A stretch of 49,661 nucleotides of DNA from a virus: positions 1 to 49,661 of the IMG/VR virus record IMGVR_UViG_3300025849_000054, one strand, 5' to 3'. The translations under genes and the position numbers were made by a program. Numbering within the stretch: the stretch's first letter is position 1; each line of letters starts with the position of its first letter. Below, piece after piece: positions 1,465-49,661 of the stretch. Below the pieces are notes generated by a model. The model was not told where the DNA came from, did not search any database, and saw only the letters and a list, made by a program, of their open reading frames with translations.

Positions 1465-4400
1465 TTTAACACTGATACCTGTACTGCTGGACCATTTTGA
1501 CTGTCTGCCATATCTAAACTTGTAAATGCTAAATGCTCACTGTATTTTGGAAATTCTTCTGTTGTACAATTTACTACTTTATCATATCTCCAATTTAAAA
1601 ATATTAATCTATTGAATCCTTTTTTGTTTAACATGTATGCATAATTTTTAAATGACATTAATCCTACAAGTGTTAAGAACCTTGTCTTATCCATATTCAT
1701 AAATGAACTTGTTAATTCTGCTTCTTCTTCTGAGTCAATAACAAATTGATATGTGCTAACAATTAATTTTAAAAATTCAGCACCTACACCTTGTTTTACT
1801 TGTTCTAATTGTTGTGCTTGATCTAGTATATGAGCCTGACCCTGATTACGGCCTCCGCCAACTGCACCTTTTAAATTGTAAATTCTTAATTCTTCTGGAA
1901 TATCATGCTTTTCATAAAATGGTACTAGTTGTGATTTGACCTGTGCTAATCCACTAAACTTAAAGTCGTCAATACCGTTAACCATTCTACCGCCACCTGA
2001 CGATACCTCACCTTTAACTTCTATTTCTTCGCCATTAACTTTGATATCACCTACCGAAGCAAGTTCTACATTAGGTGACAGTAAACACAATCCAAGTTCA
2101 CCTGGCCCTCTGTTTGATCCAGATATATTAATTCTAAAGTCAAATAATTTTTCATAAAGATCATCTATAAATTCTTTAGATACTGCATCAGTTCCGACAA
2201 ACATGTCTGAAATTTTAAATACACCAGACTTGTTTAATAATTCTGTGTTTACATAATCTGCATGTCCGTAAGTTTCAACAAATGCATCTATTTCGTCAAA
2301 ATCATGATCTAGTTGTTCAAGTGATAAAACTAATTGTCTCATAATATTCTTATTAATTCTATGATCGTTTTCCTTACCAGTGTCATTATTTTTAAGTCTA
2401 TCTTCAATATCCAAATGGTCTGCAGACTCTTTATCAAGTTTTAACATTTTGTAAACTCGTCTAGCAAAATTTGGATTTTTTTCTAATGCAGTCATTATGC
2501 TGTTTAATCTGTCTTCTGTTGCATCCTCTTTGATATAACTTTCATTGAGATTAAGTTGTTTTACTTCTGCATCTGGTAATCTATTTTTTGCAAAATGCAT
2601 TAGGATGTCTCTACCACATGCTTCTGGCCCTTCTATGCTTTTTAATTGGCTAAATGCTGTCATCATCCTTGGTATTGGTAATGCTAAGTATGCCTGGAAT
2701 TGCATATCTAAATTACCAACTGGAAAATGTTTTGATAATAATTTTTTTAGTATAGCAAGTTTGTTATTGTTAGGCATGTTTTCTGTTAGTCTTTTAGTTC
2801 TTAATAATACATCTATGCCTAACAAACTTTCTGTTTTTGATTTGTCAAAGTATCCACGGTCGATCATTTTATTTAACATAGCCTGTGCCTTTACTTCGCC
2901 ATGTTGTGTTTTAAACTTGTTGTAAGTATTTTTTATATGCTGTTCTTTATTATATGATCCGGCAGGCTTTTTAACACTTTTACTTACTTTATTATATTTT
3001 CCTACTCCTAGTCTTTTCTGTTCTTTGTCTATAGTATCTAAATTTTTAAAATAACCCTCAACAATAGGTGTGTTCAATAATTCTAATTGTTTTTGTATTG
3101 GTAATTTTTCAAATCTTTCAAAAACACTAGGCATAATATTATTTACATAGGTACTGTCATCTAATTCTTTGCGGATATCTGCTTTAATTTTTTTTCTATC
3201 GTAATCTTTTGGTGATTTGTGTGCGCCAGCACCTGGCATGTTTTTGCTGTTCTTTGCTACTGGATTATTCTGCTTTGGCATTTTTGGTTTTTTTGCTTCA
3301 CCTATTTGTGTTTCGTCCATATGAGCCATAACATCATATATAATGTCACTGCTACTGCAACAATCAATTACTCTGCCACTAGCAAAGTGCCCAATTGGTT
3401 GTCCGCCTACTTCCATCTCTGGGTCTACACAATCTTCTACATCTAGGTCTTCTAGTGCTTGGTATATTGCATATTCTAAATCATCTTTGTTTGCAAATTG
3501 ATTTTCTCTTCCACTAAACTCATCTACTAATTTTTCAACACAACTGTTAGCAATAATACTTCTTTCTTCGCCTTCGTTAAACTTTTTCATATTAGTATTT
3601 ATTGTATTTTCATTTCTTGTAAATTTTTCTAATACATTTGATTCGTGTAATATACGCAACTGTTCTTGTAAAGGCAGTTTATCAAACTTGGTAAAGATAC
3701 TTTCTTGTGAAATTTCTTTTGCCGCATTTACGGCACCCATAAACGTATCAAAAGGTCCATTAAGTCTAAGTATTGCTAAAACCTCTTTCTTAAAGTTGGT
3801 GTCTTGCTGAGGATTGTTTAAAAATGCTACCAATTTATTTACTTCGCCTTTTGGTAAGTAATTCTGCATTCCCTGTTGCATCATAATATTAAACAATCTG
3901 TGTTTCCTGGCTTTATCGTAATCTGTATTTGTCCAATCTGAACTTCCGTATACTCCGCTTACATCATCGTCATCATTACCGTCTGCATCTTTTCTAAAAT
4001 AGTTACCACCACTCACATTGTAGTTGTCTCTGATATATTTTTCTGCATCTCTTACTGCGGCACCCCATCTTGCTAATCCAATTACATTTTTGCCGTTCTC
4101 GTCGGTTTCAGCAGGTCTCCAGTTGTGGTCGCCATCAAACTGTTGATATACTTTTCTCAATAAGTTTACACCCTGGTCATTTACGCCACGTTCTATTCCT
4201 AAATGGTCTGCTAAATTGCCCCAATCTGTTTCACCTGCTATGCCATTTGAGGAACCACCATTGTCGGGTTCAATACCAGCCGCTATGGCCATCTTGTCTA
4301 TGGGTTTGCCTAAATCATTTTGGTCTATGCCTACATCACCGTCAAGTACTTTTTTAAGTATATTATCTAATGCTACCTTAAAACTACCACCACTGCTTTG

Positions 4401-7400
4401 TTTGTTGGCCATTTCTTTAGCAACTACATCTTTCATTTTTGCTGGGTACTGTTCCCAATCAAATGCATCAAAACGTTTTTGCTCTGCCTCGTCATCCATA
4501 TTCTCCCAACTTATACCACTGCTTCTGTTTAGTGGTTCACCGCTTTTGGGATTTTGTGTTTCTTCATCTGGGAATAAATCGTCTTGTCCAGGTGCACCTT
4601 TTCTGCTGTCGCCTTTGTGAGTGACTTCAATACCGATATTTTTTAATTTGTGGTATACATCACCATCGCCTTGAATGAATGCTTCTTTGACATTTAAGTC
4701 CTTCCAACTATAACCATATTTGTTGTTGAATCTATTTACTATTTTTTTATAACCCTTTTTACGCCAAGTGTGATAATAGTTTTTATTTTTTTCAAATGTA
4801 TCTATAAGTTCTAAACCGTTTGTGGCATCTTCGGCATCACTCCAGTGACTGGAAGGTATAACATAAACTTTACTCTGGTTTACTTTGTCGTTAAAATGAT
4901 CTAAATTGCTATCTAAATATGCTTCTCTGTCGTCATAGTCTTCATCTGTGATAGTATCAAAAAAGTCTCGGTCTATATACACCCAACTGTGACTTGGTAT
5001 ATTAAGTTTTGCTTTTGCGTTGTCTCTGACATTCTTTTCAAAGTCTCTATTTCTTCTATCTAATGTATTTTTTGCTTGTATTTCTTGTTTAAGATTTACA
5101 AATCCTTCTTTCTGGAATATTTTATCAAATCCTGATAAGAATTTTTTTATTGCCGCAAATCTTTCTTTATGTAATTGTCTTAGAACAGCACCTTGCTCAG
5201 GCCCGTTGTTTTCTTTCCAAGCAAAATATCTATCCATATGCATAGATCCTACTACATAATCATCTATAAGAGCAGGCAAATTAAATGTTTGTTCATCTGC
5301 CTCTATTTCACTGTCTGCTTTTACAAGCCTGTCCATTACATCGTTCCAACGTTCTAAACTACTATGCGAAGCCAAGTTTGATTCTCCATCGGAGCCACGG
5401 TTGATTTGTGTGTATCCATTTTCATCTTCGGCCCAAAGATCTGGTCTAGGTTTTAAGCCTTCCAATAATTCTAATCCTAATTTGCTTACTTGTTTAGCAA
5501 TAGTTACAAATTTTTCTTTGTCTTCCCTTTCTAGATCTTTCAAATGATCTAACCTGTCTCTTAATCTCTGTGTGAGCCTCATCTGGAATACGTCTGAATA
5601 TTTGTCATCACTTTTAATATTAACATGATGATCTCTGCTTGTTGGATGTTTGTAACCTTGATATGGTTCTAAGAATTTTAATAATTCTTGTGCTGAATCT
5701 TTTGTGGTAATTCTATTGCTTTTTAATAACTCGTTTCTTACATTCCATCCACGGCCTTTCAGTTTAGCAACAAAACTATTTTCTTGTCTTTCATGAGATA
5801 ATTCTCTTAATGTGTTTTCGACATCTATTTTTTTGTTTGCAGGGGTTAAAACAACCAGTAAGTCTGCAAGTTTATCTAATTTGACATTATCTTTGCTATC
5901 GTCTGATTGATAGAACTGCCACATTTTACTGGCAATGCGGTCTACATCTTGCGGAGATAAATATTCTGGGTTTTTAATTATGTCTTGCTTGAATAAAGTG
6001 TTTATTCCTTTTTGTAATATTAATACTTTGTCTTTGTCAGAACCTTCAATGTTATGATTCTCCATACTTGAAAAAACCAGTGTTTCCATGCTATCACTGT
6101 TTAGTTGTAATTCTTTGGCAAACTTTCTAAACGACGCAATGTTTTTAGCAGTAACAGGTGCTCTGTTATTACCGTCTGCTATGTCTTTTGCTAATAATGT
6201 TACTGCTGATCCAAATCTATCTTGTGCTTTGTCTAATTCGCCTGCCGCTCTCTTGCTTGGTGACATACTGTTAGGCTGTACATATCCTTTGATTGTTTCT
6301 TCTTCTATTTCTACTTTAGTACCAGTACCTTTTTCGAAATCTTTTATTTCCTGCTTCCATATTTTATCTGCATCTGGACTACTTAATTTTTCATAGTTTT
6401 GTAAATACTCAACACTGGCACTTAGAAATTTAATTACATCAAAGTAATCTTTTTTGCCTACAATGCTCTTGGCGGCATCTATTACTTCGTGATTAACTAC
6501 TTCTAAATTTTTTAATTTTTTAGGATCTATTTCCTGTGACTTACGCAATAATCTAAATACTGCTTTAACATATTCTGGTCTAAAAGCATCTTTACTATAT
6601 CCTGCTTTCATTACAGTAGCATATCTCACACATGCTTTAACAACTTTATCATACATTGTGTTATAGTCTACACCGCCGGCAATTCTAAACTCTATAAGGT
6701 TATTTCCTGAGTCTTTATCAGTCTCGCCTTTAAAATTTATACTGTTAAACTTACCAGGGTCTATGCCTTTAGCAAGTTCTTTCTCAAATGCTTCAAAACT
6801 TTTTGCATCACCACGTTTCATGCCTTCTGCATATTTTAATACATTTTGATATTGACTTTTTGTGTAACTGTTACGCAATCTACCAAACTCTGCAAGTAAG
6901 TATTCATCACCTAATAGCAATGCCATCTTTAATTTGTTTGGTTCTGATGCCTCATCTCCCCAAAATTCATCATCGTCTGTTTTTACTAAATCTCTTTTTT
7001 CACCTTGCCAACTCATAGTAACATGTAGTCCTGTAGAGTTGTTTGTGCCAAAGTTTTTTTCACTCCAGTCAAATAAACTTTTCATTTCTGTAAGCATTTT
7101 TCTAGGTGAATCAAATACTGGCGAAATTAATTCTGCACCTGCTCCTTCATCGGCTTCTATACTGCTATCAGTTTCTACTGACCAAGCAGTTGTGGTATTA
7201 GTGGAGTCATACTCACCTATTTCCGGATAGTCTGTAAATTTACTATTATCTTTTATCCAGTTGTATAACTCATCTGCAACACCTTCAACATTGCCTTCAC
7301 TGCTACTATTATACTCATAACCATAATCATCAAGGAAACTGCTCATGTAACTGTAGTTGTCGTATATCCAATCTTCTACACTATAATCATCTCTTGCGGC

Positions 7401-8366
7401 TTCTCTGGCCTCATCGTCTAGATCACCGTCTGCAACGTCTTTTTTTAACCAAGCCAAATACTCATCTTCGTATTCTTCTTCTACATATTCTCTGACCCAG
7501 TTCATATAGTCCCAACCATCTTCCTCACGGTTTTCGTATTCTTTTGGATCGTTTTCTTCAAAATCTTTTTTGTATATTTCGATTGCTTCTGAACTTGGTC
7601 CTGCCCCACTATCTATAAAGTCGTTTAGATAGTCTTCATCTTCTCTGACCTCATTTACTTTATCTTCTATTATGTCATCTAAATATTCGTCTTGTCCTTT
7701 AGTGTACAACCAGTCTTCAAAGTTTTCCCAAACTTGATCTGGCATATCACCGTATTCGTATTCGATATCAGAAATGCTCATGTTGTCTATATCATCACTG
7801 GCTCTTCTGCCGTCTACACTATAAAAAAATGTTTCTGCTTCAAAGCCACATTTTACAGGAGCATCCAAGGCCTCTATGGCTATTTCTTTTTTGTTGAAAT
7901 TTATTTCGAATAGTTTTGGATCCGCTTCTTTGAGTAATTTAGATCTTTTTTTGAATTTTGTTAAATTTTTTTTACCAGTTAATTTTTTTAATATTTTTTT
8001 AGCAAGTGTGCTTTCGTCAATATCCATGTCATTGGCTTTTTTAAGTATATTTGCTAACTGATTTCTCAATGCAGGAGTCTGCATTGCTTTTGTAAATTGT
8101 ACATCAATTGATAATTTTGATTGTAATTGTGCTGGTGTTGGCTTTTCGCCTTGTATGGTCTTGTTTATGCCTTTGGCGGCCATTTTAGGATTTATAGGCT
8201 TACCTAACTTGGCTCCTAGTGCCTTAAAACCTTTTGCTACTTCCTTTTCTTGGTCAGGTGTGAATGGCTCCATTTCCATTTCGTCGTCATTTTTATTTGA
8301 CTGCTTCGCGTTGGAATTTGGATCTTGTATTCCTTTATTATATTCGTACAAATCGTTTATTTTCAT
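1461..8366 (-). CDS. Giant virion-associated protein with amidoligase-like domain
   Basis: 2301 residues starting MKINDLYEYNKG, a possible capsid-targeting leader (LYE). Residues about 170-590 match the amidoligase_2 (COOH-NH2 ligase) pattern: GFEAE at the start, SSIEADEGAGAELISP, GLHVTMSW and NLIEFRIAGG. A very acidic stretch (Asp/Glu/Tyr-rich, about 185-370) is embedded in it. Near the C-terminus, GPGE (about 2087) followed by GDIKVNGEEIEVKGE (about 2110) is the E...D...ExK spacing of PD-(D/E)xK nucleases. Two copies of an FxxFxKLPxQxQLxxL motif lie at about 1555 and 1745. The middle is otherwise unrecognised. It overlaps its upstream neighbour and the SOD gene by ATGA, so all are translated together from the late operon. 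Probably an internal or ejected protein; enzymatic activity is inferred only from motifs. Confidence 0.8.
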   Translation of the reverse strand: MKINDLYEYNKGIQDPNSNAKQSNKNDDEMEMEPFTPDQEKEVAKGFKALGAKLGKPINPKMAAKGINKTIQGEKPTPAQLQSKLSIDVQFTKAMQTPALRNQLANILKKANDMDIDESTLAKKILKKLTGKKNLTKFKKRSKLLKEADPKLFEINFNKKEIAIEALDAPVKCGFEAETFFYSVDGRRASDDIDNMSISDIEYEYGDMPDQVWENFEDWLYTKGQDEYLDDIIEDKVNEVREDEDYLNDFIDSGAGPSSEAIEIYKKDFEENDPKEYENREEDGWDYMNWVREYVEEEYEDEYLAWLKKDVADGDLDDEAREAARDDYSVEDWIYDNYSYMSSFLDDYGYEYNSSSEGNVEGVADELYNWIKDNSKFTDYPEIGEYDSTNTTTAWSVETDSSIEADEGAGAELISPVFDSPRKMLTEMKSLFDWSEKNFGTNNSTGLHVTMSWQGEKRDLVKTDDDEFWGDEASEPNKLKMALLLGDEYLLAEFGRLRNSYTKSQYQNVLKYAEGMKRGDAKSFEAFEKELAKGIDPGKFNSINFKGETDKDSGNNLIEFRIAGGVDYNTMYDKVVKACVRYATVMKAGYSKDAFRPEYVKAVFRLLRKSQEIDPKKLKNLEVVNHEVIDAAKSIVGKKDYFDVIKFLSASVEYLQNYEKLSSPDADKIWKQEIKDFEKGTGTKVEIEEETIKGYVQPNSMSPSKRAAGELDKAQDRFGSAVTLLAKDIADGNNRAPVTAKNIASFRKFAKELQLNSDSMETLVFSSMENHNIEGSDKDKVLILQKGINTLFKQDIIKNPEYLSPQDVDRIASKMWQFYQSDDSKDNVKLDKLADLLVVLTPANKKIDVENTLRELSHERQENSFVAKLKGRGWNVRNELLKSNRITTKDSAQELLKFLEPYQGYKHPTSRDHHVNIKSDDKYSDVFQMRLTQRLRDRLDHLKDLEREDKEKFVTIAKQVSKLGLELLEGLKPRPDLWAEDENGYTQINRGSDGESNLASHSSLERWNDVMDRLVKADSEIEADEQTFNLPALIDDYVVGSMHMDRYFAWKENNGPEQGAVLRQLHKERFAAIKKFLSGFDKIFQKEGFVNLKQEIQAKNTLDRRNRDFEKNVRDNAKAKLNIPSHSWVYIDRDFFDTITDEDYDDREAYLDSNLDHFNDKVNQSKVYVIPSSHWSDAEDATNGLELIDTFEKNKNYYHTWRKKGYKKIVNRFNNKYGYSWKDLNVKEAFIQGDGDVYHKLKNIGIEVTHKGDSRKGAPGQDDLFPDEETQNPKSGEPLNRSSGISWENMDDEAEQKRFDAFDWEQYPAKMKDVVAKEMANKQSSGGSFKVALDNILKKVLDGDVGIDQNDLGKPIDKMAIAAGIEPDNGGSSNGIAGETDWGNLADHLGIERGVNDQGVNLLRKVYQQFDGDHNWRPAETDENGKNVIGLARWGAAVRDAEKYIRDNYNVSGGNYFRKDADGNDDDDVSGVYGSSDWTNTDYDKARKHRLFNIMMQQGMQNYLPKGEVNKLVAFLNNPQQDTNFKKEVLAILRLNGPFDTFMGAVNAAKEISQESIFTKFDKLPLQEQLRILHESNVLEKFTRNENTINTNMKKFNEGEERSIIANSCVEKLVDEFSGRENQFANKDDLEYAIYQALEDLDVEDCVDPEMEVGGQPIGHFASGRVIDCCSSSDIIYDVMAHMDETQIGEAKKPKMPKQNNPVAKNSKNMPGAGAHKSPKDYDRKKIKADIRKELDDSTYVNNIMPSVFERFEKLPIQKQLELLNTPIVEGYFKNLDTIDKEQKRLGVGKYNKVSKSVKKPAGSYNKEQHIKNTYNKFKTQHGEVKAQAMLNKMIDRGYFDKSKTESLLGIDVLLRTKRLTENMPNNNKLAILKKLLSKHFPVGNLDMQFQAYLALPIPRMMTAFSQLKSIEGPEACGRDILMHFAKNRLPDAEVKQLNLNESYIKEDATEDRLNSIMTALEKNPNFARRVYKMLKLDKESADHLDIEDRLKNNDTGKENDHRINKNIMRQLVLSLEQLDHDFDEIDAFVETYGHADYVNTELLNKSGVFKISDMFVGTDAVSKEFIDDLYEKLFDFRINISGSNRGPGELGLCLLSPNVELASVGDIKVNGEEIEVKGEVSSGGGRMVNGIDDFKFSGLAQVKSQLVPFYEKHDIPEELRIYNLKGAVGGGRNQGQAHILDQAQQLEQVKQGVGAEFLKLIVSTYQFVIDSEEEAELTSSFMNMDKTRFLTLVGLMSFKNYAYMLNKKGFNRLIFLNWRYDKVVNCTTEEFPKYSEHLAFTSLDMADSQNGPAVQVSVLK

Positions 8367-8641
8367 CTTCTTCTATTGAGCCTTGCAACTCTTTTGCTAA
8401 TTGGACTTCTTCTTTTAGTACGAGCGGCTTTCCTTGCCATCCTCTTACCAACTCTTGCTCTTGTCTTTTTGAGCGTCATACGTTTTTTTAGGTTGATAGG
8501 TTTCGAGCATTGGCCTACATTAGACACCATTCTGCCTTTGCGTGGACCACTGGTGCATCTAACCTTGCGAACAATTTTACTGCCTCGCTTGGCCCAGACC
8601 ATTTTGGCCTCCATTACTCCTTCTACTTCAACTATTTTCAT
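8363..8641 (-). CDS. Arg/Lys-rich small virion-type protein
   Basis: 92 residues, extremely basic, ending in an Arg/Lys-rich half (KKTRARVGKRMARKAARTKRR). It begins MKIVEVEGVMEAK, again a short leader with I-x-E. The centre VRKVRCTSGPRKGRMVSNVGQCSKP has two Cys about 16 residues apart. I recall similar small basic proteins in marine T4-like phages, without known function. Such charge suggests DNA binding inside the capsid, by analogy with T4 internal proteins; this is inference. Its stop overlaps the giant gene start by ATGA and it starts just after the stop of the membrane protein gene upstream. Confidence 0.75.
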   Translation of the reverse strand: MKIVEVEGVMEAKMVWAKRGSKIVRKVRCTSGPRKGRMVSNVGQCSKPINLKKRMTLKKTRARVGKRMARKAARTKRRSPISKRVARLNRRR

Positions 8642-8642
8642 T

Positions 8643-8885
8643 TTAAAATAACTTAAATATTAATGCAATTATCAAACTTGACATTGTTGCAAATACGCCT
8701 GCCATAATACCTACAAGCCAGTTTTCTATTTTAGTAAAATGTTCTTTTACTTCAACTTTGAATTCTTTGATTTCTGTTGTTACTTGCTCTATGCGAAGCA
8801 TATCAGCAATTACTTGCGATTTTAAATCTGGCTCATTAGCATACAACTGTTCTGCTGGTTTGCTATCTAACTTTTTGTCTACCAT
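8643..8885 (-). CDS. Small coiled-coil protein with C-terminal membrane anchor (XhlA-like)
   Basis: 80 residues. Residues about 25-55 are an amphipathic helix (IEQVTTEIKEFKVEVKEHFTKIENW) and residues about 57-79 a single hydrophobic segment, LVGIMAGVFATMSSLIIAL, ending in KLF. This is the layout of the XhlA hemolysin/holin-accessory family. A role at the host membrane in lysis or in ejection is possible; neither an endolysin nor a canonical holin is visible in this window. Starts with a TAATG overlap with the stop of the upstream gene at 8885, so it is translationally coupled. Confidence 0.7.
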   Translation of the reverse strand: MVDKKLDSKPAEQLYANEPDLKSQVIADMLRIEQVTTEIKEFKVEVKEHFTKIENWLVGIMAGVFATMSSLIIALIFKLF

Positions 8886-9289
8886 TATAATACATCCTGT
8901 TTAGAAAATTCAGTATTTACTGAACTTTTAGTATCTACAGTACCGCCATTGAGGACAATACCGTTTAATTCATCTTTCAATGTGTCTAATGTATGAGCAC
9001 CTTGTCTTTCAAATGCAAACTTGAATACCCAACCTGCACCTGTTAATGTTGGTGCACCGTAGTCATCTAATCCTGCCGAAACTCCGTCAACTACAATTGG
9101 TGTGTTCATAAGCATTGGTTGTGCTCTCAAACTTATTACCTGTACTAAACTTTCAAAATCTTTTTGTGTATCGTCTGTAAAATCGTCTGTGGCAGTTATG
9201 TCTAATGTGGTGAACAATGTAAAAAATTCTACGTCTCCTGTGAGTACTTCACTTGACGTTAATAATCCACCTGATCTTGTTTGTGCCAT
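8885..9289 (-). CDS. Hypothetical virion-type protein, first gene of late operon
   Basis: 134 residues, mostly beta-like composition (MAQTRSGGLLTSSEVLTGDV...), not recognised as a named T4 protein. The first gene after a T4-type late promoter (9317-9324), with a good Shine-Dalgarno AGGAGA seven to ten bases before ATG at 9289. Followed directly by the membrane protein, the basic protein, the giant amidoligase-like protein and SOD fusion, all overlapping or nearly so, so it heads a five-gene late operon. Late expression and composition suggest a structural role (inference). Confidence 0.7.
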   Translation of the reverse strand: MAQTRSGGLLTSSEVLTGDVEFFTLFTTLDITATDDFTDDTQKDFESLVQVISLRAQPMLMNTPIVVDGVSAGLDDYGAPTLTGAGWVFKFAFERQGAHTLDTLKDELNGIVLNGGTVDTKSSVNTEFSKQDVL

Positions 9290-9316
9290 ATGTGTCTCCT
9301 GTCACTGTTATAAGCA

Positions 9317-9324
9317 TATTTATC
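9317..9324 (-). promoter_or_regulatory. Late promoter for the 9289-1 operon
   Basis: GATAAATA on the - strand, predicted +1 about 9311, leader with AGGAGA. Drives the SOD/amidoligase operon. Confidence 0.75.
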
Positions 9325-9357
9325 ATTTTCTCAGTATATTATGACACTATTTCAATA

Positions 9358-9388
9358 GCCAAAAAAAACCCCCTTAAAAAAGGGGGTT
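9358..9388 (-). terminator. Intrinsic terminator
   Basis: Stem AACCCCCTT/AAGGGGGTT with a four-base loop and a run of eight T on the - strand, right after the gene at 9412. Ends the transcript before the next late promoter. Confidence 0.92.
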
Positions 9389-9411
9389 AAAATTTCTAAA
9401 TTTTATAGTTA

Positions 9412-9654
9412 TTAACTTGAGAAAGTTGCCACTACTGCTGTTACGTTAGCGAATGCTAATACTTCCGCCGCTGTAAGTGTAGTTTGAACTGCTATGTTAG
9501 TTGTTGAAACGTCAACACCTGCAATTGAACCACCTGCTGAACACTGAGCGATCGCTAAATCTAAATCGTCATATGTTGCTATATGTGTTTGTGAACCTAA
9601 TCCGTTACCTTCACCTGCTGTTGCTGAGTTTGCCTCTAATCTTACTAATGCCAT
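9412..9654 (-). CDS. Small hypothetical late protein
   Basis: 80 residues, low in charge, rich in Ala, Thr and Val (MALVRLEANSATAGEGNGLG...). Monocistronic: a late promoter GATAAATA at 9719-9726, a leader of about 60 bases with AATTAGGAG before ATG, and a strong intrinsic terminator (9358-9388) 20 bases after the stop. A short gene insulated by its own promoter and terminator is probably made in large amounts, which would suit a decoration or other structural protein; the family is unknown to me. Confidence 0.7.
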   Translation of the reverse strand: MALVRLEANSATAGEGNGLGSQTHIATYDDLDLAIAQCSAGGSIAGVDVSTTNIAVQTTLTAAEVLAFANVTAVVATFSS

Positions 9655-9718
9655 TATTGGTCTCCTAATTCTGTGTAATAGACTATTTTGTTTAACTATT
9701 CTATTACTTGGTTACTTT

Positions 9719-9726
9719 TATTTATC
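9719..9726 (-). promoter_or_regulatory. Late promoter for gene at 9412
   Basis: GATAAATA on the - strand; +1 predicted near 9713; leader carries AATTAGGAG before ATG. Confidence 0.7.
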
Positions 9727-9775
9727 CAAAATAGTAAGATTTTTGGGGTTTTGATTTTGAAATATATTGAGATTT

Positions 9776-10363
9776 TTACTTTCCAGACAGTAAATCTTTG
9801 AATTTATACCTTAAATTAGCCATTGTATCACTTGGATTTCTCATATAAGATGCTACTGTATTTCTTACTTTTTTAATACCTTTTTTAACACCAAAATTTG
9901 GTAGTATTGTATCGTATTCTGCATCGGGATCAAATGCAGGGTTACCATAGTATTTTTGATGTTTTAATTTTCTACCATCGCTACCAGTTCTAACACCATC
10001 GCTGTCGCCGTCTTTAGTGTTTAATCCTCTACGTGATGTACCTTTTAGTGCGTCTGCTCTTGCTTTGCTTCTTAACTCAGCATCACTAGGACCTTCTTTT
10101 TTACGAGGCTCTTCCCTTTTATTAATTTGAGATTGTTGTGACTTGTTTCTTACATCAACATCAGTACTACCAACATTAGGTACATTTTTTAAATCTCCTA
10201 CCTCTACATCTGTTCCAATTGACTGCCCCATATCGCGACCATATGTAGATGTATCAGTACCAACACCCTGTATTCTTCGCTGAGTATGGATATCTCGCAT
10301 CTGTTTCATTGCATCTTTTTGTGCTTTACTGATTTCTTTGATTATTACTTCGTCGATTCTCAT
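9776..10363 (-). CDS. Hypothetical internal-type protein with leader peptide
   Basis: 195 residues, strongly basic and low-complexity, starting MRIDEVIIKEISKAQ. The leader ends in I-x-E, the T4 prohead protease type of site. The centre has a KDGDSDGVRTGSDG segment that looks like a calcium-binding DxDxDG loop, and the C-terminus is Lys/Arg-rich. No family recognised. A late-type box CATAAATA (10369-10376) ends six bases before the ATG, so transcription is predicted to start on the ATG itself; there is no Shine-Dalgarno. Confidence 0.7.
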   Translation of the reverse strand: MRIDEVIIKEISKAQKDAMKQMRDIHTQRRIQGVGTDTSTYGRDMGQSIGTDVEVGDLKNVPNVGSTDVDVRNKSQQSQINKREEPRKKEGPSDAELRSKARADALKGTSRRGLNTKDGDSDGVRTGSDGRKLKHQKYYGNPAFDPDAEYDTILPNFGVKKGIKKVRNTVASYMRNPSDTMANLRYKFKDLLSGK

Positions 10364-10368
10364 ATTAC

Positions 10369-10376
10369 TATTTATG
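10369..10376 (-). promoter_or_regulatory. Late promoter, leaderless, for gene at 9776
   Basis: CATAAATA followed by five bases and ATG at 10363. The predicted +1 is the A of ATG. Confidence 0.7.
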
Positions 10377-11139
10377 ACCTTTTTCTACTTTGCCAGTATG
10401 CGGCAATGCCTGCCAACCCAGCCGCGGATTTAGGTCCTAACCTTCCGCCTGTTATTCTTGGGCCAAATTCTGCACCAACGTATGCCGATGCACCTGCTAC
10501 TGCTAAACGTTTTAGTGTTGTTTGATCGGTTGCTTTGTCTAATTCTGTGTTAGTTGCATTAACTAATTTATAATTTCTTTCTTTAGCAAATTTATTTAAT
10601 GTTTTATACAGGTCACTTCTTACTGCTTTGGCTCGCATTATGTGTAACATTTTTGTGACTGCTAATTGCTTTTGCCTATATTTTAATCTGCTCCAATCAG
10701 ATACCAATCTTCTGACATTTTGTATGACCATGTCATTAATTTTAAGTTGTCTTTGCAATCTCAAGAAGTAAATTGAATTTGGAATTTGTCCTTTTGCTAT
10801 GCTGGTCATAAACTGATGCATCAGTTGTTCGTTAAATTTATAATCTTTTTTATACTTAGAATTAATTGTGTATGCAATCATGTAATGATCGTTAGCACCT
10901 AATCTACTTGCACGATATTTTCCGTGTCTTACATTTGCATTTGCATATTGTATTGCAAATGGTCTATATTTTTTATCTTGTGCAAACACATACACCAACA
11001 TGGTTGTTACCATTAGTAATTCTGCCATATCATCTTTGGTATATGGCTTGAATCCATCAGTTGTTCTGTATAATCTACTTTCCTGTAGATCGCCTAAAAA
11101 TTGATATTGTGCTTGTTTTTGTTCTTTAGGTGTTTCCAT
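10372..11139 (-). CDS. Hypothetical late protein
   Basis: 255 residues, METPKEQKQAQYQFLGDLQES..., helical and basic in the middle (repeated Leu/Arg-rich segments at about 120-190). The C-terminus, about 205-245, is Gly/Ala-rich and mildly hydrophobic (VAGASAYVGAEFGPRITGG), perhaps membrane-interacting. Not recognised; I recall similar unnamed proteins in marine T4-like phages. Start overlaps the stop of the nucleotidyltransferase-like gene (TAATG at 11139), so the two are coupled in the 13457-10372 late operon. Confidence 0.65.
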   Translation of the reverse strand: METPKEQKQAQYQFLGDLQESRLYRTTDGFKPYTKDDMAELLMVTTMLVYVFAQDKKYRPFAIQYANANVRHGKYRASRLGANDHYMIAYTINSKYKKDYKFNEQLMHQFMTSIAKGQIPNSIYFLRLQRQLKINDMVIQNVRRLVSDWSRLKYRQKQLAVTKMLHIMRAKAVRSDLYKTLNKFAKERNYKLVNATNTELDKATDQTTLKRLAVAGASAYVGAEFGPRITGGRLGPKSAAGLAGIAAYWQSRKRS

Positions 11140-12407
11140 TATGCGCCTGGTCTCCCTGTGCCAAAGTTTTTAACACTAAAGTCTAATCTGTCGACTAATT
11201 TAATTGCGTTTCCAATATGATCAACAGCAACAAAGCCTTCTTCACCTGTGACATCATAGTCGCCTTCTTGGTTTTGTACAAACGTGTCTATTTGTTTTAT
11301 GTTTGCTAATTTTTTAATTATCATTTCTTTTGCTTTGATTAAATCTAAATACACAACGTATGCTTTTTCTATTTCTTCTTGATTGCTTTCTAAAAATTTA
11401 ATGCCGTCTATCATCAATTTTGTTTTTCTTACTTTACCGTCATCGCTTTTTAGTTTTTCAACTGCTGATTTCAGTGTGCCTTTGTACTCTGCAATAAATC
11501 TTTGAGCAAATACTTTTGGATCTTGTTCAAAGCCTACTAATTCTCTAATAATTTTATTTACACTTGCCTTAATTCTTATTCTCAAGTCATCTCCAAATTC
11601 ATTATTTTTAAGAAAGTCTAAATCTGTAACTGCTTTTAAGTTTTGATCTGCATTGTTAATGAGTTCGGCCATCTCTCGTGATTCATCTTCAGTGAAAGTT
11701 ACTTGCCCTGAGTAGTCTCTTATGATTGCATCTCTGTGCCAAACATCTGGATGACTGCCTAAACTACTTGCATCAAACCCAAACTTTGCTGACATGTCTG
11801 CTAATTCGCCGCCTCCAACATATTCTGTGTGAAACACTATGCCTATTTTAGAACGTAAAATATCTTTTGCAAGATTACTGTTTTTTGGAATTGCATATAT
11901 AATTGTATTTGGTTTAAATACTATAAATTCTTCGCCTTTGATATTTGCATCTGATATGCTGTCGTCTGTGTATAGTAAATCTCCTTGTACAATTTTTCCT
12001 TTAAAATTTAATTTTTGTAAATGCATAAATGCACTAATTAATTTTTCTTGTAAGCCTTCTGCTTCGTGATTTGCTTTGATGTCTTGTATGCTTTTGTTTA
12101 CTAACGGATTTCTTTTGTTGAATACACTTTTAGTACCTACAAAAAATTTACCGTCTGCTGGATCAGTGCCTACAAATACTGCTGGAGCACCGTCCCATTT
12201 TGTTGTTAAGTTGAATTTGGTTTTTGCACTACCCTTCAGCATCTCATGAAAACTGTAAAGATATTGTATTGCTTGTTTACCACCAGGTAACCCGTCATTA
12301 AAAATTAAATCTTCTAAATGTTCAAGGTGAGTGTTTTTGCTTTCATCTAGTCTGTGATGAATTACACATTCAGTTAAGTACCCTTTAGTAAGATCAACTG
12401 CTCTCAT
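11139..12407 (-). CDS. KxDG nucleotidyltransferase-superfamily protein (ligase-like)
   Basis: 422 residues. Begins MRAVDLTKGYLTE, a leader ending in L-x-E. Residues about 67-75, TTKWDGAPAVF, are motif I (KxDG) of the covalent nucleotidyltransferase superfamily of DNA/RNA ligases and capping enzymes. Later motifs fit the fold: a Gly/Lys strand FFVGTKS, GKIVQGDLLY (about 137-146) and GEEFIVFKPNTIIYAI (about 158-173). The C-terminal half is helical and unrecognised. I cannot tell ligase from another AMP/GMP transferase. It lies in a late virion-type operon, coupled by TAATG on both sides, not in the replication region, which argues against a role in normal DNA replication. Confidence 0.7.
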   Translation of the reverse strand: MRAVDLTKGYLTECVIHHRLDESKNTHLEHLEDLIFNDGLPGGKQAIQYLYSFHEMLKGSAKTKFNLTTKWDGAPAVFVGTDPADGKFFVGTKSVFNKRNPLVNKSIQDIKANHEAEGLQEKLISAFMHLQKLNFKGKIVQGDLLYTDDSISDANIKGEEFIVFKPNTIIYAIPKNSNLAKDILRSKIGIVFHTEYVGGGELADMSAKFGFDASSLGSHPDVWHRDAIIRDYSGQVTFTEDESREMAELINNADQNLKAVTDLDFLKNNEFGDDLRIRIKASVNKIIRELVGFEQDPKVFAQRFIAEYKGTLKSAVEKLKSDDGKVRKTKLMIDGIKFLESNQEEIEKAYVVYLDLIKAKEMIIKKLANIKQIDTFVQNQEGDYDVTGEEGFVAVDHIGNAIKLVDRLDFSVKNFGTGRPGA

Positions 12408-20256: not shown

Positions 20257-20801
20257 TCACCTTCATATTCTATAAGTGCCCCGGCATTATATCCTTTCTC
20301 AGTTATTTTAGCAAATCCACCTAAGTCTGTCAAGTCAATTACTGCCAATACTGTTATTTGATTTTTTGGTACATTGAAATTTTCATGTATTAAATCTGCA
20401 CAGGCAATTGCTGTACCGCCTGTTGCGATTAAGTCGTCTATGATTACAACTTTATCTTCTGGAACTATATGTGTATTTTTTTGTATTTCTAAACTAGTGC
20501 TACCATATTCTAAATCAAAATCTCTCTTGTGTGTTTCGTTAGGTAGTTTACCAGGCTTTCTTGCCATTATAAAAGGTAAGTCTAGGTCTCTGGCAATTGG
20601 TGCTCCAAACACAAAACCTCTGCTTTCAACACCCACAATCTTAGTTGCCTTAAATGAAAGACTGGTTAAGTCTACAAGTGCTTTATTAAATGCTAATGGA
20701 TTTTCTATTAGGCTGGTTATATCTCTAAATTGTATTCCTGGTATTGGAAAGTCAGGTACAGTTCTTATGGCATTTTTTAGGTCTTGATAAAATTCTTTCA
20801 T
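20253..20801 (-). CDS. apt: Adenine phosphoribosyltransferase
   Basis: 182 residues, the usual length. Residues about 15-28 FPIPGIQFRDITSL, about 58-88 VESRGFVFGAPIARDLDLPFIMARKPGKLP and the PRPP loop VVIIDDLIATGGTA (about 119-132) are typical of Apt. Converts adenine and PRPP to AMP. A salvage enzyme directly downstream of metK (TAATG overlap): S-adenosylmethionine use releases adenine-containing products, so a methylation-recycling link is plausible but inferred. Confidence 0.95.
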   Translation of the reverse strand: MKEFYQDLKNAIRTVPDFPIPGIQFRDITSLIENPLAFNKALVDLTSLSFKATKIVGVESRGFVFGAPIARDLDLPFIMARKPGKLPNETHKRDFDLEYGSTSLEIQKNTHIVPEDKVVIIDDLIATGGTAIACADLIHENFNVPKNQITVLAVIDLTDLGGFAKITEKGYNAGALIEYEGE

Positions 20802-21892
20802 TAAAATAAATCAATGTGTTCCCATGGAAGTTCATCTTTACCAAAATGCCCATATAATGTTGTAGTGGTTAAGTCTAACTTAAATAAGTCAAATTTGTCA
20901 ATAATGCCTTTTGGTGTTAAGTCAACATTTTTGCTAATCCATTCTACTAAGTCTGGTCTAACTTTGCCGTCTGCATATACATAAACACTAGTAGGCTCTA
21001 CTACACCGATTGCATAACTTAGTTGTACTGTACAGTTATCTGCTTTACCAAATGCAACAATATTCTTTGCTAAGTAACGTGCCATGTATGCCGCACTTCT
21101 ATCAACTTTGGTACAGTCTTTACCACTAAATGCTCCGCCACCGTGTGGTGCATAACCACCGTATGTATCAACAATAATTTTTCTGCCTGTTAATCCTGTG
21201 TCTCCATCTGGTCCACCAATTACAAATCTGCCTGTTGGATTTATTAAAAATTCAGTTTCACTTAAATCCCAATCTGTTATTTCATCTCTAATAATTTGCT
21301 CAATTCTATCACGTACCATTTGAATACTTACATCATCGCTGTGTTGCGTACTACATACAATTTTAGTAATACCAGTTGGTTTGTTTACATTGTCATACGT
21401 CATAGTTACCTGACTTTTACTATCAGGACCTAACCAAGTTTCATTGCCTTCTCTTTCTGCTTGTAGTCTTTTTAAAATTTTATGACTGTAGTAAATAGCA
21501 CTTGGCATATAATTAGGAGTTTCATTGCAGGCGTACCCAAACATAAGTCCTTGGTCACCAGCACCAAAGTCATCTGTGCCTAATGCAATGTCAGGTGATT
21601 GACCATGTAGTTCGTTATATACTTTTAATTTTTCCCAATGGAAGCCATCTTGTTCATAACCAATATCTTGTACAACTGCTCTAACAATGTCCTCAATGAC
21701 ATCCTTGTCAAACTTGTCACTTTTGTATTCACCTGCAAGTGTAACCATGTTAGTAGTTACCAATGTTTCTACAGCCGCTCTGTGATTTTCTTTGCCGTCT
21801 ATTAAATATGTTGCTACTGCATCCGAAATCAAATCTGCGATTTTATCTGGATGTCCTATGCTAACACTTTCGCTTGTAAATTCATAAGTCAT
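20801..21892 (-). CDS. metK: S-adenosylmethionine synthetase
   Basis: 363 residues against about 384 in bacterial MetK. N-terminal ESVSIGHPDKIADLISDA (ATP/methionine site), GAGDQGLMFGYA (signature 1, about 109-120) and GGGAFSGKDCTKVDRS (signature 2, about 249-264), flanked by the conserved GGPDGDTGLTGRKIIVDTYGG. All three domains seem complete, so an active enzyme is expected. Makes SAM from ATP and methionine, here perhaps to supply phage DNA methylation or other SAM use. Coupled by TAATG to mazG upstream and to apt downstream. Confidence 0.97.
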   Translation of the reverse strand: MTYEFTSESVSIGHPDKIADLISDAVATYLIDGKENHRAAVETLVTTNMVTLAGEYKSDKFDKDVIEDIVRAVVQDIGYEQDGFHWEKLKVYNELHGQSPDIALGTDDFGAGDQGLMFGYACNETPNYMPSAIYYSHKILKRLQAEREGNETWLGPDSKSQVTMTYDNVNKPTGITKIVCSTQHSDDVSIQMVRDRIEQIIRDEITDWDLSETEFLINPTGRFVIGGPDGDTGLTGRKIIVDTYGGYAPHGGGAFSGKDCTKVDRSAAYMARYLAKNIVAFGKADNCTVQLSYAIGVVEPTSVYVYADGKVRPDLVEWISKNVDLTPKGIIDKFDLFKLDLTTTTLYGHFGKDELPWEHIDLF

Positions 21893-47084: not shown

Positions 47085-48950
47085 TTACTTGTAAAGTTTT
47101 CTTATTTCGCCGTCAAATAATGGGGCGTACATTTTTACAGGATCTACTTTACCTTTAACAGTAACTTCTCCTATATTACCAAATGCTATGTTAGGGCATT
47201 CCATATAAGTATATTCAGAAACAATAATTGGTGTGTCTTCTGCTCTTGTTTGTGCTTCTAATCTAGCACCTAAGTTTACAGCATCACCTACCACACTATA
47301 ATCTAATCTAGTTTCAGCACCCATGTTGCCGACAATACATGTACCTGTGTTTACACCTGTACCAAATTTTACTCTTGGCAAGCCACGTTCTTCCATTTCT
47401 TTTTCTAATTCGTCACCTAATAGTTCAATCTCTATTGCTGTTTTAACGGCCATCTCAGCATGATTCTCACATGGTAGTGGTGCATTCCAAAATGCCATTA
47501 TACAGTCACCCATGAACTTGTCTATTGTGCCACCGTTCTTTAAAACTATCTTAGTCATTTTATCTAAGAAACTGTTTATTAGTTCTACTAGTCCTTCTGG
47601 GTCATCTGCTTTCATATACTTTTCTGATATGGGTGTAAAGCCGACTATGTCAGCAAACATAAAACTCATTTCTTTTCTTTCGCCACCTAGTTTCATTAGA
47701 CTAGGATCTTTAACTAACATATCAACATAGTCCGGGGATATATAAGTACCAAACTGTCCTTTGATTTGTTGACGTAATTTGTATTGTTTATAGAAGTTAT
47801 TAAATGCTGATTGTGTAAACACTAAAAATCCACTTAACACAGGAAAAGTTGCATCTACTAATTGTAATTTATTTTGATATAACCACACACTACCATATGC
47901 TTCTCCACCTAAAATCAGCAGTGAAATCGGTGCTGTCCACAGCAATGGTAACTTATACACCGCTAAGGCTATTAAAATCATACCACACAACGCACACAGA
48001 AGTTCTATAAGCGACGATAACTGGCTCCGCTGTATATTTGATCCATCTATAAAGTTCTGTAGCATGTGTGCTTGTATATGCTGTGGATACATGTTGCCTC
48101 TTGGAGTAGGTACAGGGTTAGCAATACCTTCTGCTGTAACACCTACTATAACAAACTTTCCACCCATATTAGGTAAACTGTTTATGTCCGTATATTCTAC
48201 TTCTTCAAACGTATTATTGTAACGTATATATGCATCGCCTTTTGGCAATGTTACTATAGGATCAAAAGGCGGAACTGCAAATTCGTTTATGCCTATCTCT
48301 GTTGTTTTAATCATGTAACTGGGTTTGCCTGTTTGTACTCGTAACATTTCTATAGCAAAACTAGGATATATTTTTCCCTCTACTCCTATTGCTAATGGAT
48401 ACGTTCTTGTAACAAAATCAGGTTGTGGTGCTGATGCATTTACGCCTATGCCAAGTGCTTCTGCTTCTAGTTCAGGTATGTTTGTTACTAAATTTGGCCA
48501 AGTTAGGAGAAAGTCCTGTGCTGTTGTAGGACCGATTACTCCAGTGCCAATATGAGGTCCTGTGGTCTTGATTCCTCTTGTGCTTGGTGTCTGAGATAAC
48601 ACTATTCCGTTACCCTTTATCCATGAAGCAAAAACTTCGTCTCCTCCAAATCTATCTGCTTCAGGAAACATAAGAGTGAAGCCTACTATGCCTTGATTCT
48701 TTTGTCTAATATCATATATGAGTTGAGCGTATGTAGTTCTAGGAAAAGGATACTGCCCTAATGTTTCTAGACTTTTTTCGCCTATGTTAATAATAACAAC
48801 TTCGTTGCTTTGTTTAATTTCGTCTAGTTTTTGATATGCATCAAATGTTTGATTTCTTAAATTCTGTATTGGTGTAGGATCAACTACTTGGAGTGCTGTA
48901 AGTAATAATATAGATACTATTACAGCATAACCACTATAAACCCATTTCAT
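47085..48950 (-). CDS. CHASE2-domain adenylate/guanylate cyclase (class III)
   Basis: 621 residues from ATG at 48950, which gives the usual ATGA overlap; a second ATG at 48974 adds eight residues. One N-terminal membrane helix (about 5-20), a periplasmic CHASE2 sensor (about 25-310, DAYQKLDEIKQSNEVVIINIGEKSLETLGQYPFPRT...), three helices (about 315-385), then a class III cyclase. FADIVGFT and FMGDCIMAFWN give the metal Asp pair, GTIDKF and LDYSVVGDAVNL the Lys/Asp ATP-selecting residues, NLGARLE the transition-state Asn and Arg. Complete, so likely active and adenylate-specific. Confidence 0.93.
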   Translation of the reverse strand: MKWVYSGYAVIVSILLLTALQVVDPTPIQNLRNQTFDAYQKLDEIKQSNEVVIINIGEKSLETLGQYPFPRTTYAQLIYDIRQKNQGIVGFTLMFPEADRFGGDEVFASWIKGNGIVLSQTPSTRGIKTTGPHIGTGVIGPTTAQDFLLTWPNLVTNIPELEAEALGIGVNASAPQPDFVTRTYPLAIGVEGKIYPSFAIEMLRVQTGKPSYMIKTTEIGINEFAVPPFDPIVTLPKGDAYIRYNNTFEEVEYTDINSLPNMGGKFVIVGVTAEGIANPVPTPRGNMYPQHIQAHMLQNFIDGSNIQRSQLSSLIELLCALCGMILIALAVYKLPLLWTAPISLLILGGEAYGSVWLYQNKLQLVDATFPVLSGFLVFTQSAFNNFYKQYKLRQQIKGQFGTYISPDYVDMLVKDPSLMKLGGERKEMSFMFADIVGFTPISEKYMKADDPEGLVELINSFLDKMTKIVLKNGGTIDKFMGDCIMAFWNAPLPCENHAEMAVKTAIEIELLGDELEKEMEERGLPRVKFGTGVNTGTCIVGNMGAETRLDYSVVGDAVNLGARLEAQTRAEDTPIIVSEYTYMECPNIAFGNIGEVTVKGKVDPVKMYAPLFDGEIRKLYK

Positions 48951-49198
48951 TCTTTTGGATATCCTTCGTACCATTCTTTGATAGTATTGACTCTTACATC
49001 ACGCCATGCTTTTTTATCTAATGCATACATAATAATTGTATCACTAGTAGTATCGTATTTTTTTATATCAATACTTTGTTTATGTATTTCTTGATTAAGA
49101 GTACACGGCATAGTTCGAATTTCTTTTGTGTCTATCTTTTCAAATACTACTGTTACTACTCCTTGCCTAAGAGCATCTATAATTTTGTTTGAATCCAT
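48947..49198 (-). CDS. Small SH3-like (DUF2693-type) protein
   Basis: 83 residues from ATG at 49198. GVVTVVFEKIDTKEIRTMPCTLN (about 14-36) and IIMYALDKKAWRDVRVNTIKEW (about 55-76) are the two halves of a small beta-barrel phage protein family that I associate with T4-like phages (DUF2693-like, SH3 fold). Function unknown. Coupled by TGATG to the reductase upstream and ATGA to the cyclase downstream, linking it to the three-gene end cluster. Confidence 0.7.
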   Translation of the reverse strand: MDSNKIIDALRQGVVTVVFEKIDTKEIRTMPCTLNQEIHKQSIDIKKYDTTSDTIIMYALDKKAWRDVRVNTIKEWYEGYPKE

Positions 49199-49661
49199 CA
49201 ATCTACAAATGCTCTTTCTAACATAAAGTCACCCATTTCGCCTGTATTACCTTCTTGCCAATTTAGTGTTTTAAACAAAGTACGACATTCCTTATTCATA
49301 CCTGGAGAACCGCACACCATTATGCCGTCTCTTTCTTTGAGGAAGCCACCTGGTAAAAATTCTTCAACATATTGCCAAAAGCGACCAGTTCTACCATAGT
49401 CTTCTCTAGTTACAGTTGGTATGTAAGTAAAAGGTAAATCTTCTTCTATACTATTTAGCGATTCTATGTATGCTAATTCGTTTACATTTCTTACTGTGTG
49501 AAACAAATATACTTTTTTAAATCTGCTGTATGTATCAGGGTCGTTGACAATACTAACAAATGGTGCTACTCCAGTGCCAGTTGCTAATAATACTAAATTA
49601 TCTTTAGGGTTCAAATAATCACATACCAAACTACCTGTGACTTTTGGATTAATTAATATTT
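49198..49661 (-). CDS. fpr: Ferredoxin(flavodoxin)-NADP+ reductase, N-terminus beyond window
   Basis: 154 codons to the right edge, with no stop: the frame continues upstream of the window. The visible part is the NADP-binding domain of bacterial Fpr: NPKVTGSLV, LVLLATGTGVAPFVSIV, FKKVYLFHTVRNVNELAY, GIMVCGSPGMNKECRTLF and the C-terminal GDFMLERAFVD, typical of proteobacterial-type Fpr. Transfers electrons between NADPH and ferredoxin or flavodoxin. The FAD domain lies outside. Coupled to the SH3-like gene. Confidence 0.9.
   Translation of the reverse strand, partial: ILINPKVTGSLVCDYLNPKDNLVLLATGTGVAPFVSIVNDPDTYSRFKKVYLFHTVRNVNELAYIESLNSIEEDLPFTYIPTVTREDYGRTGRFWQYVEEFLPGGFLKERDGIMVCGSPGMNKECRTLFKTLNWQEGNTGEMGDFMLERAFVD

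Follow-up and report, generated by a model that had tools for sequence, protein, structure and literature searches.

A CHASE2 class III adenylate cyclase at the end of a curli gene cluster in a PA5oct-related jumbo phage

The window, an IMG/VR virus record 49,661 bases long, carries the gene of a 621-residue CHASE2 class III adenylate cyclase (47085..48950, minus strand), which closes a cluster of curli-fibre genes. The source is a marine-type, PA5oct-related jumbo phage of the T4 superfamily, and the CHASE2 and catalytic halves of such phage proteins have been exchanged between lineages. The cluster also encodes a FecR protein, most likely the periplasmic partner of CHASE2 and tied to curli by a curlin-like tail, so that the cyclase would report curli secretion or the state of the fibre.

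The cyclase gene and its protein

The longest open reading frame in the cyclase frame spans 47085-48974 (minus strand), with its upstream end at 48974. Relatives have a stop within the first 8 codons of this frame, so the start is assigned to the ATG at 48950; the alignment of the HTVC008M cyclase begins at Met9 of the longest frame. After this correction the start coincides exactly with the one given in an earlier note made from the sequence of this DNA. The coding sequence is supported by the reading frame, its relatives, Pfam matches, the AlphaFold2 model and dN/dS values.

The N-terminal transmembrane helix occupies residues 7-23 (48882..48932, minus strand; AlphaFold2 helix and hydropathy). 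The CHASE2 sensor domain, placed by genome search, covers residues 15-326 (47973..48908, minus strand) and matches PF05226 with 125.9 bits and E=2.7e-36, far over the curated cut-off. Three further transmembrane helices extend from residue 312 to about 390 (47781..48017, minus strand; AlphaFold2 and blastn), and the exchange of sensor and catalytic halves falls in or near this stretch. In the AlphaFold2 model, which has a mean pLDDT of 88, these helices are at 312-333, 336-361 and 368-about 390, and the cyclase fold follows. CHASE2 lies between the N-terminal helix and the helix set, as in CHASE2 sensors, and is periplasmic by topology; Pfam and the model thus bear out the complete membrane sensor described earlier. 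CHASE2 is a widespread sensor domain, and no CHASE2 structure is among the matches listed by Foldseek with this model as query.

Against close relatives dN/dS (Nei-Gojobori) is 0.03-0.09 for the catalytic part and 0.06-0.23 for CHASE2, so the protein is maintained, under strong purifying selection. Relatives of the cyclase are encoded on 401 stretches in IMG/VR.

Active site of the catalytic domain

The class III nucleotidyl cyclase catalytic domain is formed by residues 426-608 (47127..47675, minus strand), as indicated by Pfam, residue conservation and the Foldseek match to CyaB. It matches Guanylate_cyc (PF00211) with E=3.3e-19 and 69.6 bits, against a curated cut-off of 21.9. Residue alignment places the active-site codons, all on the minus strand: the metal-binding Asp434 (47649-47651) and Asp482 (47505-47507), Lys478 for adenine recognition (47517-47519), Ser552 for specificity (47295-47297), and Asn559 (47274-47276) and Arg563 (47262-47264) for the transition state. 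The metal, purine and transition-state residues of class III adenylyl cyclases are therefore all present, and Asp434, Lys478, Asp482 and Arg563 do not vary across 52 phage and 80 bacterial homologues. The second purine-specificity position, for which adenylyl cyclases accept Asp, Thr or Ser, is Ser552 in the phage protein and Ser or Thr in all 80 bacterial homologues. The position of Lys478 is glutamate in the guanylyl cyclase Cya2 (2w01), which is closely similar in the alignment.

CyaB and other cyclases head the structural matches, which, from their lengths and descriptions, correspond to the cyclase part of the protein. The domain shares 36-38% identity with the solved CyaB of Pseudomonas aeruginosa, at a TM-score of about 0.87 (Foldseek). 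With its active-site residues intact and PF00211 above the cut-off, what the earlier note called an apparently catalytic cyclase holds up, and the phage membrane sensor very probably makes cAMP.

Identity of the phage

The window encodes T4-superfamily proteins, namely tail sheath, tail tube, a gp15-like protein, terminase, a T4-type ssDNA-binding protein and helicase, and these genes agree with the phage origin and T4 relationship first proposed. The nearest cultured relatives are PA5oct-group jumbo phages (59% identity for the terminase, 42% for the tail sheath); the next relative of the terminase is that of Sinorhizobium phage Phosso (49%). The curli/cyclase cluster is also found in the 250.5-kb contig of a relative, L063. 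These matches and the contig size identify a jumbo phage and not an HTVC008M-type pelagimyophage, an identity that was considered and rejected. The window phage therefore belongs to neither of the types published for the curli module, pelagimyophages and HTVC023P, and the PA5oct-related group is not named in earlier phage curli or cyclase reports, as far as the available text of the literature searched shows.

A join between phage and host contigs, which would have made the reading frame an artefact, has nothing in its favour except the general risk of metagenome contigs. The same junction recurs at 98-100% identity, flanked by the same tail genes, in contigs with their own IMG/VR identifiers, for example over 10,140 bp at 99.95% in L009 and over 12.6 kb at 98.6% in L004 and L006. 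The join that the earlier note had named as a possible refutation is ruled out by this recurrence. A phylogeny against bacterial cyclases, proposed in the same note, places the phage CHASE2 sequences in a separate clade (SH-aLRT 100), which also counts against an artefact, and the probability of one is negligible.

Elsewhere in the window, a Cu/Zn superoxide dismutase domain (PF00080, E=8.5e-44), unusual in a phage, is part of a protein of at least 488 residues that runs off the window end (1-1464, minus strand). An open reading frame of 2301 residues (1461-8366, minus strand) has no Pfam match, and a complete S-adenosylmethionine synthetase with three Pfam domains is encoded at 20801-21892 (minus strand).

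The curli gene cluster

The gene immediately upstream of the cyclase has the same orientation and encodes a WYL_2 / Sm-like small protein (48947..49201, minus strand; PF10902, E=2e-7), an order kept in the contig L008. Next upstream is the C-terminal part of an FAD/NAD(P) oxidoreductase (49198..49661, minus strand; PF00175 and PF08030), cut by the window end. L008 overlaps this end with 98.5% identity over 5,971 bp and contains the full-length oxidoreductase (246 residues, 9037-9777). The window stops just before the genes csgF-csgG-curlin-FecR-curlin, which are seen on longer contigs of the same phage. In L008, csgF (3152-3664), csgG (3664-4698), a first curlin (4685-5476) and FecR (5445-6611) lie upstream of the cyclase and on its strand, and they are followed by a second curlin (6623-7465), small open reading frames, the oxidoreductase, WYL_2 and the cyclase.

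The backbone csgF-csgG-curlin-FecR-curlin-cyclase is also present in HTVC008M and Melnitz. Of the phage contigs anchored on csgG that extend at least 8 kb downstream of it, 22 of 22 have FecR and 21 of 22 the cyclase; the 22nd does carry a cyclase, L030 being the same contig. The CHASE2 cyclase is thus encoded with a putative envelope partner, as in the NsrA-CyaK system. The available text of PMC9599517 describes phage curli clusters that lack the CsgE gate. A csgG match in the Salmonella phage S.Kent 1-2-1 record OR851715.1 (1499 bases) is probably bacterial DNA.

One rival reading, in line with the earlier note's view of a sensor that raises host cAMP, is a free-standing enzyme of host manipulation: a receptor cyclase acquired by the phage would detect a ligand from the environment through CHASE2, and would share no more than a hypervariable region with the curli genes. 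The protein has the full receptor layout and all active-site residues that such a role needs, and in many jumbo loci other genes are inserted between FecR/curlin and the cyclase. Nearly every csgG-anchored jumbo contig nevertheless has the linkage to csgG and FecR, as do HTVC008M and Melnitz, which makes a free-standing sensor quite unlikely. A curli/FecR cluster immediately beyond the window end makes it likely that the function of the cyclase differs from the one first proposed.

A second reading links the cyclase to lysis, the cAMP output or the curli pore working with a proposed pinholin-like function of CsgGF. The module adjoins structural genes, and a lysis role has been proposed for the curli pore of Melnitz (PMC9004378). 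That proposal, in the available text, leaves out the cyclase, and nothing in the present analysis ties the cyclase to lysis genes, so a part in lysis timing is improbable.

A zero-mismatch sigma-70-type promoter, TTGACA-N17-TATAAT, is located at 7470-7498 of L008, directly after the second curlin and upstream of the distal part with the cyclase. The same position is occupied in L027 and L030, and zero-mismatch sites are present in most other jumbo loci examined, where less than one chance match is expected from base composition. Promoter calls are restricted to such sites; at 3 mismatches the pattern occurs at chance level over L008 (43 against 42 expected). The site hints at transcription of the cyclase part by the host RNA polymerase, independently of the csg genes.

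Domains that bind cyclic nucleotides were searched in the phage records, which may be fragments where they come from IMG/VR, and were found in none (PF00027 in 0 of 7, PF00325 in 0 of 17). A phage-encoded cAMP receptor is rejected on this basis. The receptor would thus be the host's, and a redirection of host transcription, as the earlier note suggested, would require it.

FecR and its curlin-type C-terminus

The phage FecR protein has a signal-peptide-like start, as read from the sequence, and a FecR domain (PF04773, E=6e-11). It ends in a motif shared with curlins, scored as [VIL]x[VIL]xQx(0-2)-end, that is hydrophobic-x-hydrophobic-x-Gln followed by 0-2 residues. The C-terminus of Escherichia coli CsgB is similar. 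The motif is found in 16 of 19 distinct FecR sequences and 35 of 38 curlins, against none of 22 CsgF/G proteins, none of 62 cyclases and 6 of 524 other phage open reading frames of at least 150 residues. The difference between FecR and these other frames is strong (Fisher p=3e-23), the FecR proteins being homologous to each other and the 16 cases not independent events. The remaining three FecR proteins end in IIIRQQSG, which is the motif with three trailing residues. Its positions Ile385 and Gln387 are invariant across FecR proteins that are only 33-34% identical over their length, and gene overlap does not produce it, since FecR and the next curlin do not overlap in L008. The structure prediction of FecR has a pLDDT of 46.5, too poor for use, and the C-terminal strand is accordingly proposed from sequence.

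FecR and CHASE2 in bacteria

In bacteria FecR genes accompany CHASE2 genes. Among 53 CHASE2-cyclase loci whose flanks are complete, 26 have a FecR open reading frame within 7 kb, mostly directly upstream and on the same strand. A FecR domain lies within 10 kb of 33 of 52 bacterial CHASE2 genes in 20 genomes (0.83 expected); without the high-scoring ones, among them the query cyclases, the figure is 18 of 31. These counts are indicative, given the relatedness of the genomes and the choice of some of them once the adjacency had been noticed, though the effect is large. Some of the bacterial FecR are N-terminal domains on cadherin, Ig or RTX adhesins. In L203 (3410-7449, minus strand) a bacterial FecR gene lies directly beside a CHASE2-PAS-GGDEF-EAL gene. 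The association therefore follows CHASE2 and not the output domain, which suggests that the pairing extends to c-di-GMP outputs. Evolutionary distances of FecR and CHASE2 correlate with r=0.87 over the complete set; among the jumbo phages the correlation is weak (r=0.35) and no better than that of FecR with the catalytic domain (0.45), which gives no sign of co-evolution of the pair there.

Small bacterial FecR genes were considered as the source of the curli-associated FecR and rejected, as 8 such loci have no csgG or curlin nearby. L153, a SAR86 single-cell genome contig, was considered as a phage contig and also rejected, its neighbours being bacterial genes. In its stretch 6959-12118 a CHASE2 cyclase with the C-terminal end DDWxGVxxATTK, common to the Melnitz cyclase, has as a neighbour a potassium channel whose C-terminus resembles a cNMP-binding domain, recognised by eye from the sequence.

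According to a reading proposed in 2022 (PMC9599517), cAMP would boost curli expression and FecR would sense iron, with no direct signalling between FecR and CHASE2. The available text of that source notes that cAMP activates curli genes in Gammaproteobacteria, and also that the phage records lack CsgD; the records searched here lack a cNMP-binding regulator as well. Such regulation accounts poorly for the signal peptide and curlin-type end of the phage FecR, and for bacterial FecR genes that track CHASE2 genes, one of them without a cyclase domain. The perfect promoter after the second curlin in several jumbo loci, suggesting separate transcription of the cyclase, also speaks against it, and this reading is considered unlikely.

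Exchange of sensor and catalytic halves

Phage CHASE2 proteins carry three catalytic types. Type A is that of the window, type B, which has a C-terminal extension, is found in L056 and L059-L070, and type C, in which the transition-state Asn is replaced by Ser, is found in L071-L076 and Melnitz. In type C domains (Melnitz, L003 12016-14064; L071, L073, L075) this Ser is accompanied by Asp at the specificity position, and they may be weak or altered cyclases.

The CHASE2 domains of L071 and L075 are 77% identical to that of the window, against 34-35% for the catalytic domains, which are 83-84% identical to that of Melnitz. The CHASE2 of Melnitz is nearest to that of HTVC008M (55%). In DNA alignments the similarity breaks off where the two domains meet: by blastn, homology to L071 and L073 ends at 47947 of the window and homology to L079 begins at 47804. 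Types A, B and C each fall on one side of a branch in the tree of catalytic domains and are interleaved in the CHASE2 tree, with all phages apart from bacteria. Non-recombining alternatives are rejected by AU tests (p=2.9e-5, 2e-48 and 4.5e-88). No earlier report of such an exchange in phages was found in the literature searched. The swapping of domains shows phages re-pairing sensors with outputs.

A possible signalling route

The cluster may work as an outside-in signalling system, with curli and FecR acting on CHASE2, cAMP acting on a host receptor and the cyclase as the inner-membrane output end; the chances that this is correct are judged about even. In its favour are the intact active site, the purifying selection, the linkage to csgG and FecR, the motif that FecR and curlins have in common, the bacterial pairing of FecR with CHASE2 genes and the published precedents described below; against it speak the missing CsgE gate, the failure to find a cNMP-binding domain in the phage records searched and the weak FecR-CHASE2 correlation among the jumbo phages. 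Curlin subunits would leave the infected cell across its outer membrane by way of CsgG and CsgF. By its curlin-type C-terminal strand, the FecR protein would bind or compete for curlin assembly and bring its FecR domain up to CHASE2 in the periplasm. Altered secretion of curli, or an altered state of the fibre, would then act on CHASE2 and, via the transmembrane helices, lead the dimeric cyclase domain to make cAMP from ATP. The cAMP would act on a host receptor, either CRP-type or an ion channel, and change the physiology of the infected cell, possibly to the benefit of the phage. The wider proposal, that marine phages build a curli fibre, read its state by a curlin-tailed FecR and convert it to cAMP, with the CHASE2 cyclase halves as cassettes interchangeable between lineages, is put forward tentatively.

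Relation to known systems

The csgF-csgG-curlin-FecR-curlin-cyclase order is shared with the T8SS/curli module of pelagiphages (HTVC008M YP_007517885; Melnitz QZI94833), and their cyclases are alignable to that of the window over 98% of its length, with 42% and 33% identity, respectively. The jumbo phage differs in having the oxidoreductase, WYL_2 and small open reading frames between curlin and cyclase, and Melnitz in its other catalytic domain, with the Asn to Ser change at the transition-state position.

The CyaK, CyaD1 and CyaD2 proteins of Sinorhizobium meliloti are likewise CHASE2 class III cyclases, and there the outer-membrane protein NsrA relays an outside signal, feeding CyaK (PMC7529298, PMC13001267). 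NsrA is a beta-barrel, whereas the phage partner would be a small secreted FecR with a curlin-type end. In Campylobacterota, clusters of CHASE2 cyclase, FecR, phosphodiesterase and TPR genes (PMC9239204) have a FecR-domain protein adjoining the cyclase, as in the phage, but name no curli genes and include a cAMP phosphodiesterase. Alphaproteobacterial CHASE2 cyclases (L086, L109, L119, L160) have a FecR open reading frame directly upstream on the same strand; there FecR is fused to cadherin, Ig or RTX adhesins, csgG is absent nearby, and the cyclases are at most 37% identical to that of the phage in the alignment.

That phage curli genes can have an adenylate cyclase and FecR as neighbours was already reported in 2022 (PMC9599517), and no mention of CHASE2 was found in the available text of PMC9599517, PMC7029224 and PMC9004378. 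The top matches of the literature search held nothing on a phage adenylate cyclase and nothing on jumbo-phage curli. The earlier claim that no phage cyclase of this architecture is characterised stands for biochemistry in the literature searched, but such cyclases are annotated in HTVC008M, Melnitz and the curli clusters of PMC9599517. Measured against the literature searched, four things look new: the lineage of jumbo phages, the exchange of domains, the motif at the C-terminus of FecR and the interpretation of the phage cluster through FecR and CHASE2.

A second messenger produced by a phage-encoded transmembrane receptor has, in that literature, been annotated but not studied as signalling. 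If the link between FecR and curlin is true, it would provide a testable role for the phage curli genes, unexplained since 2020, for which the available text of the sources proposes iron/CsgD-type regulation (PMC9599517), sibling capture or an uptake pore (PMC7029224) and a pinholin (PMC9004378). It would also suggest that CHASE2 binds FecR-domain envelope proteins.
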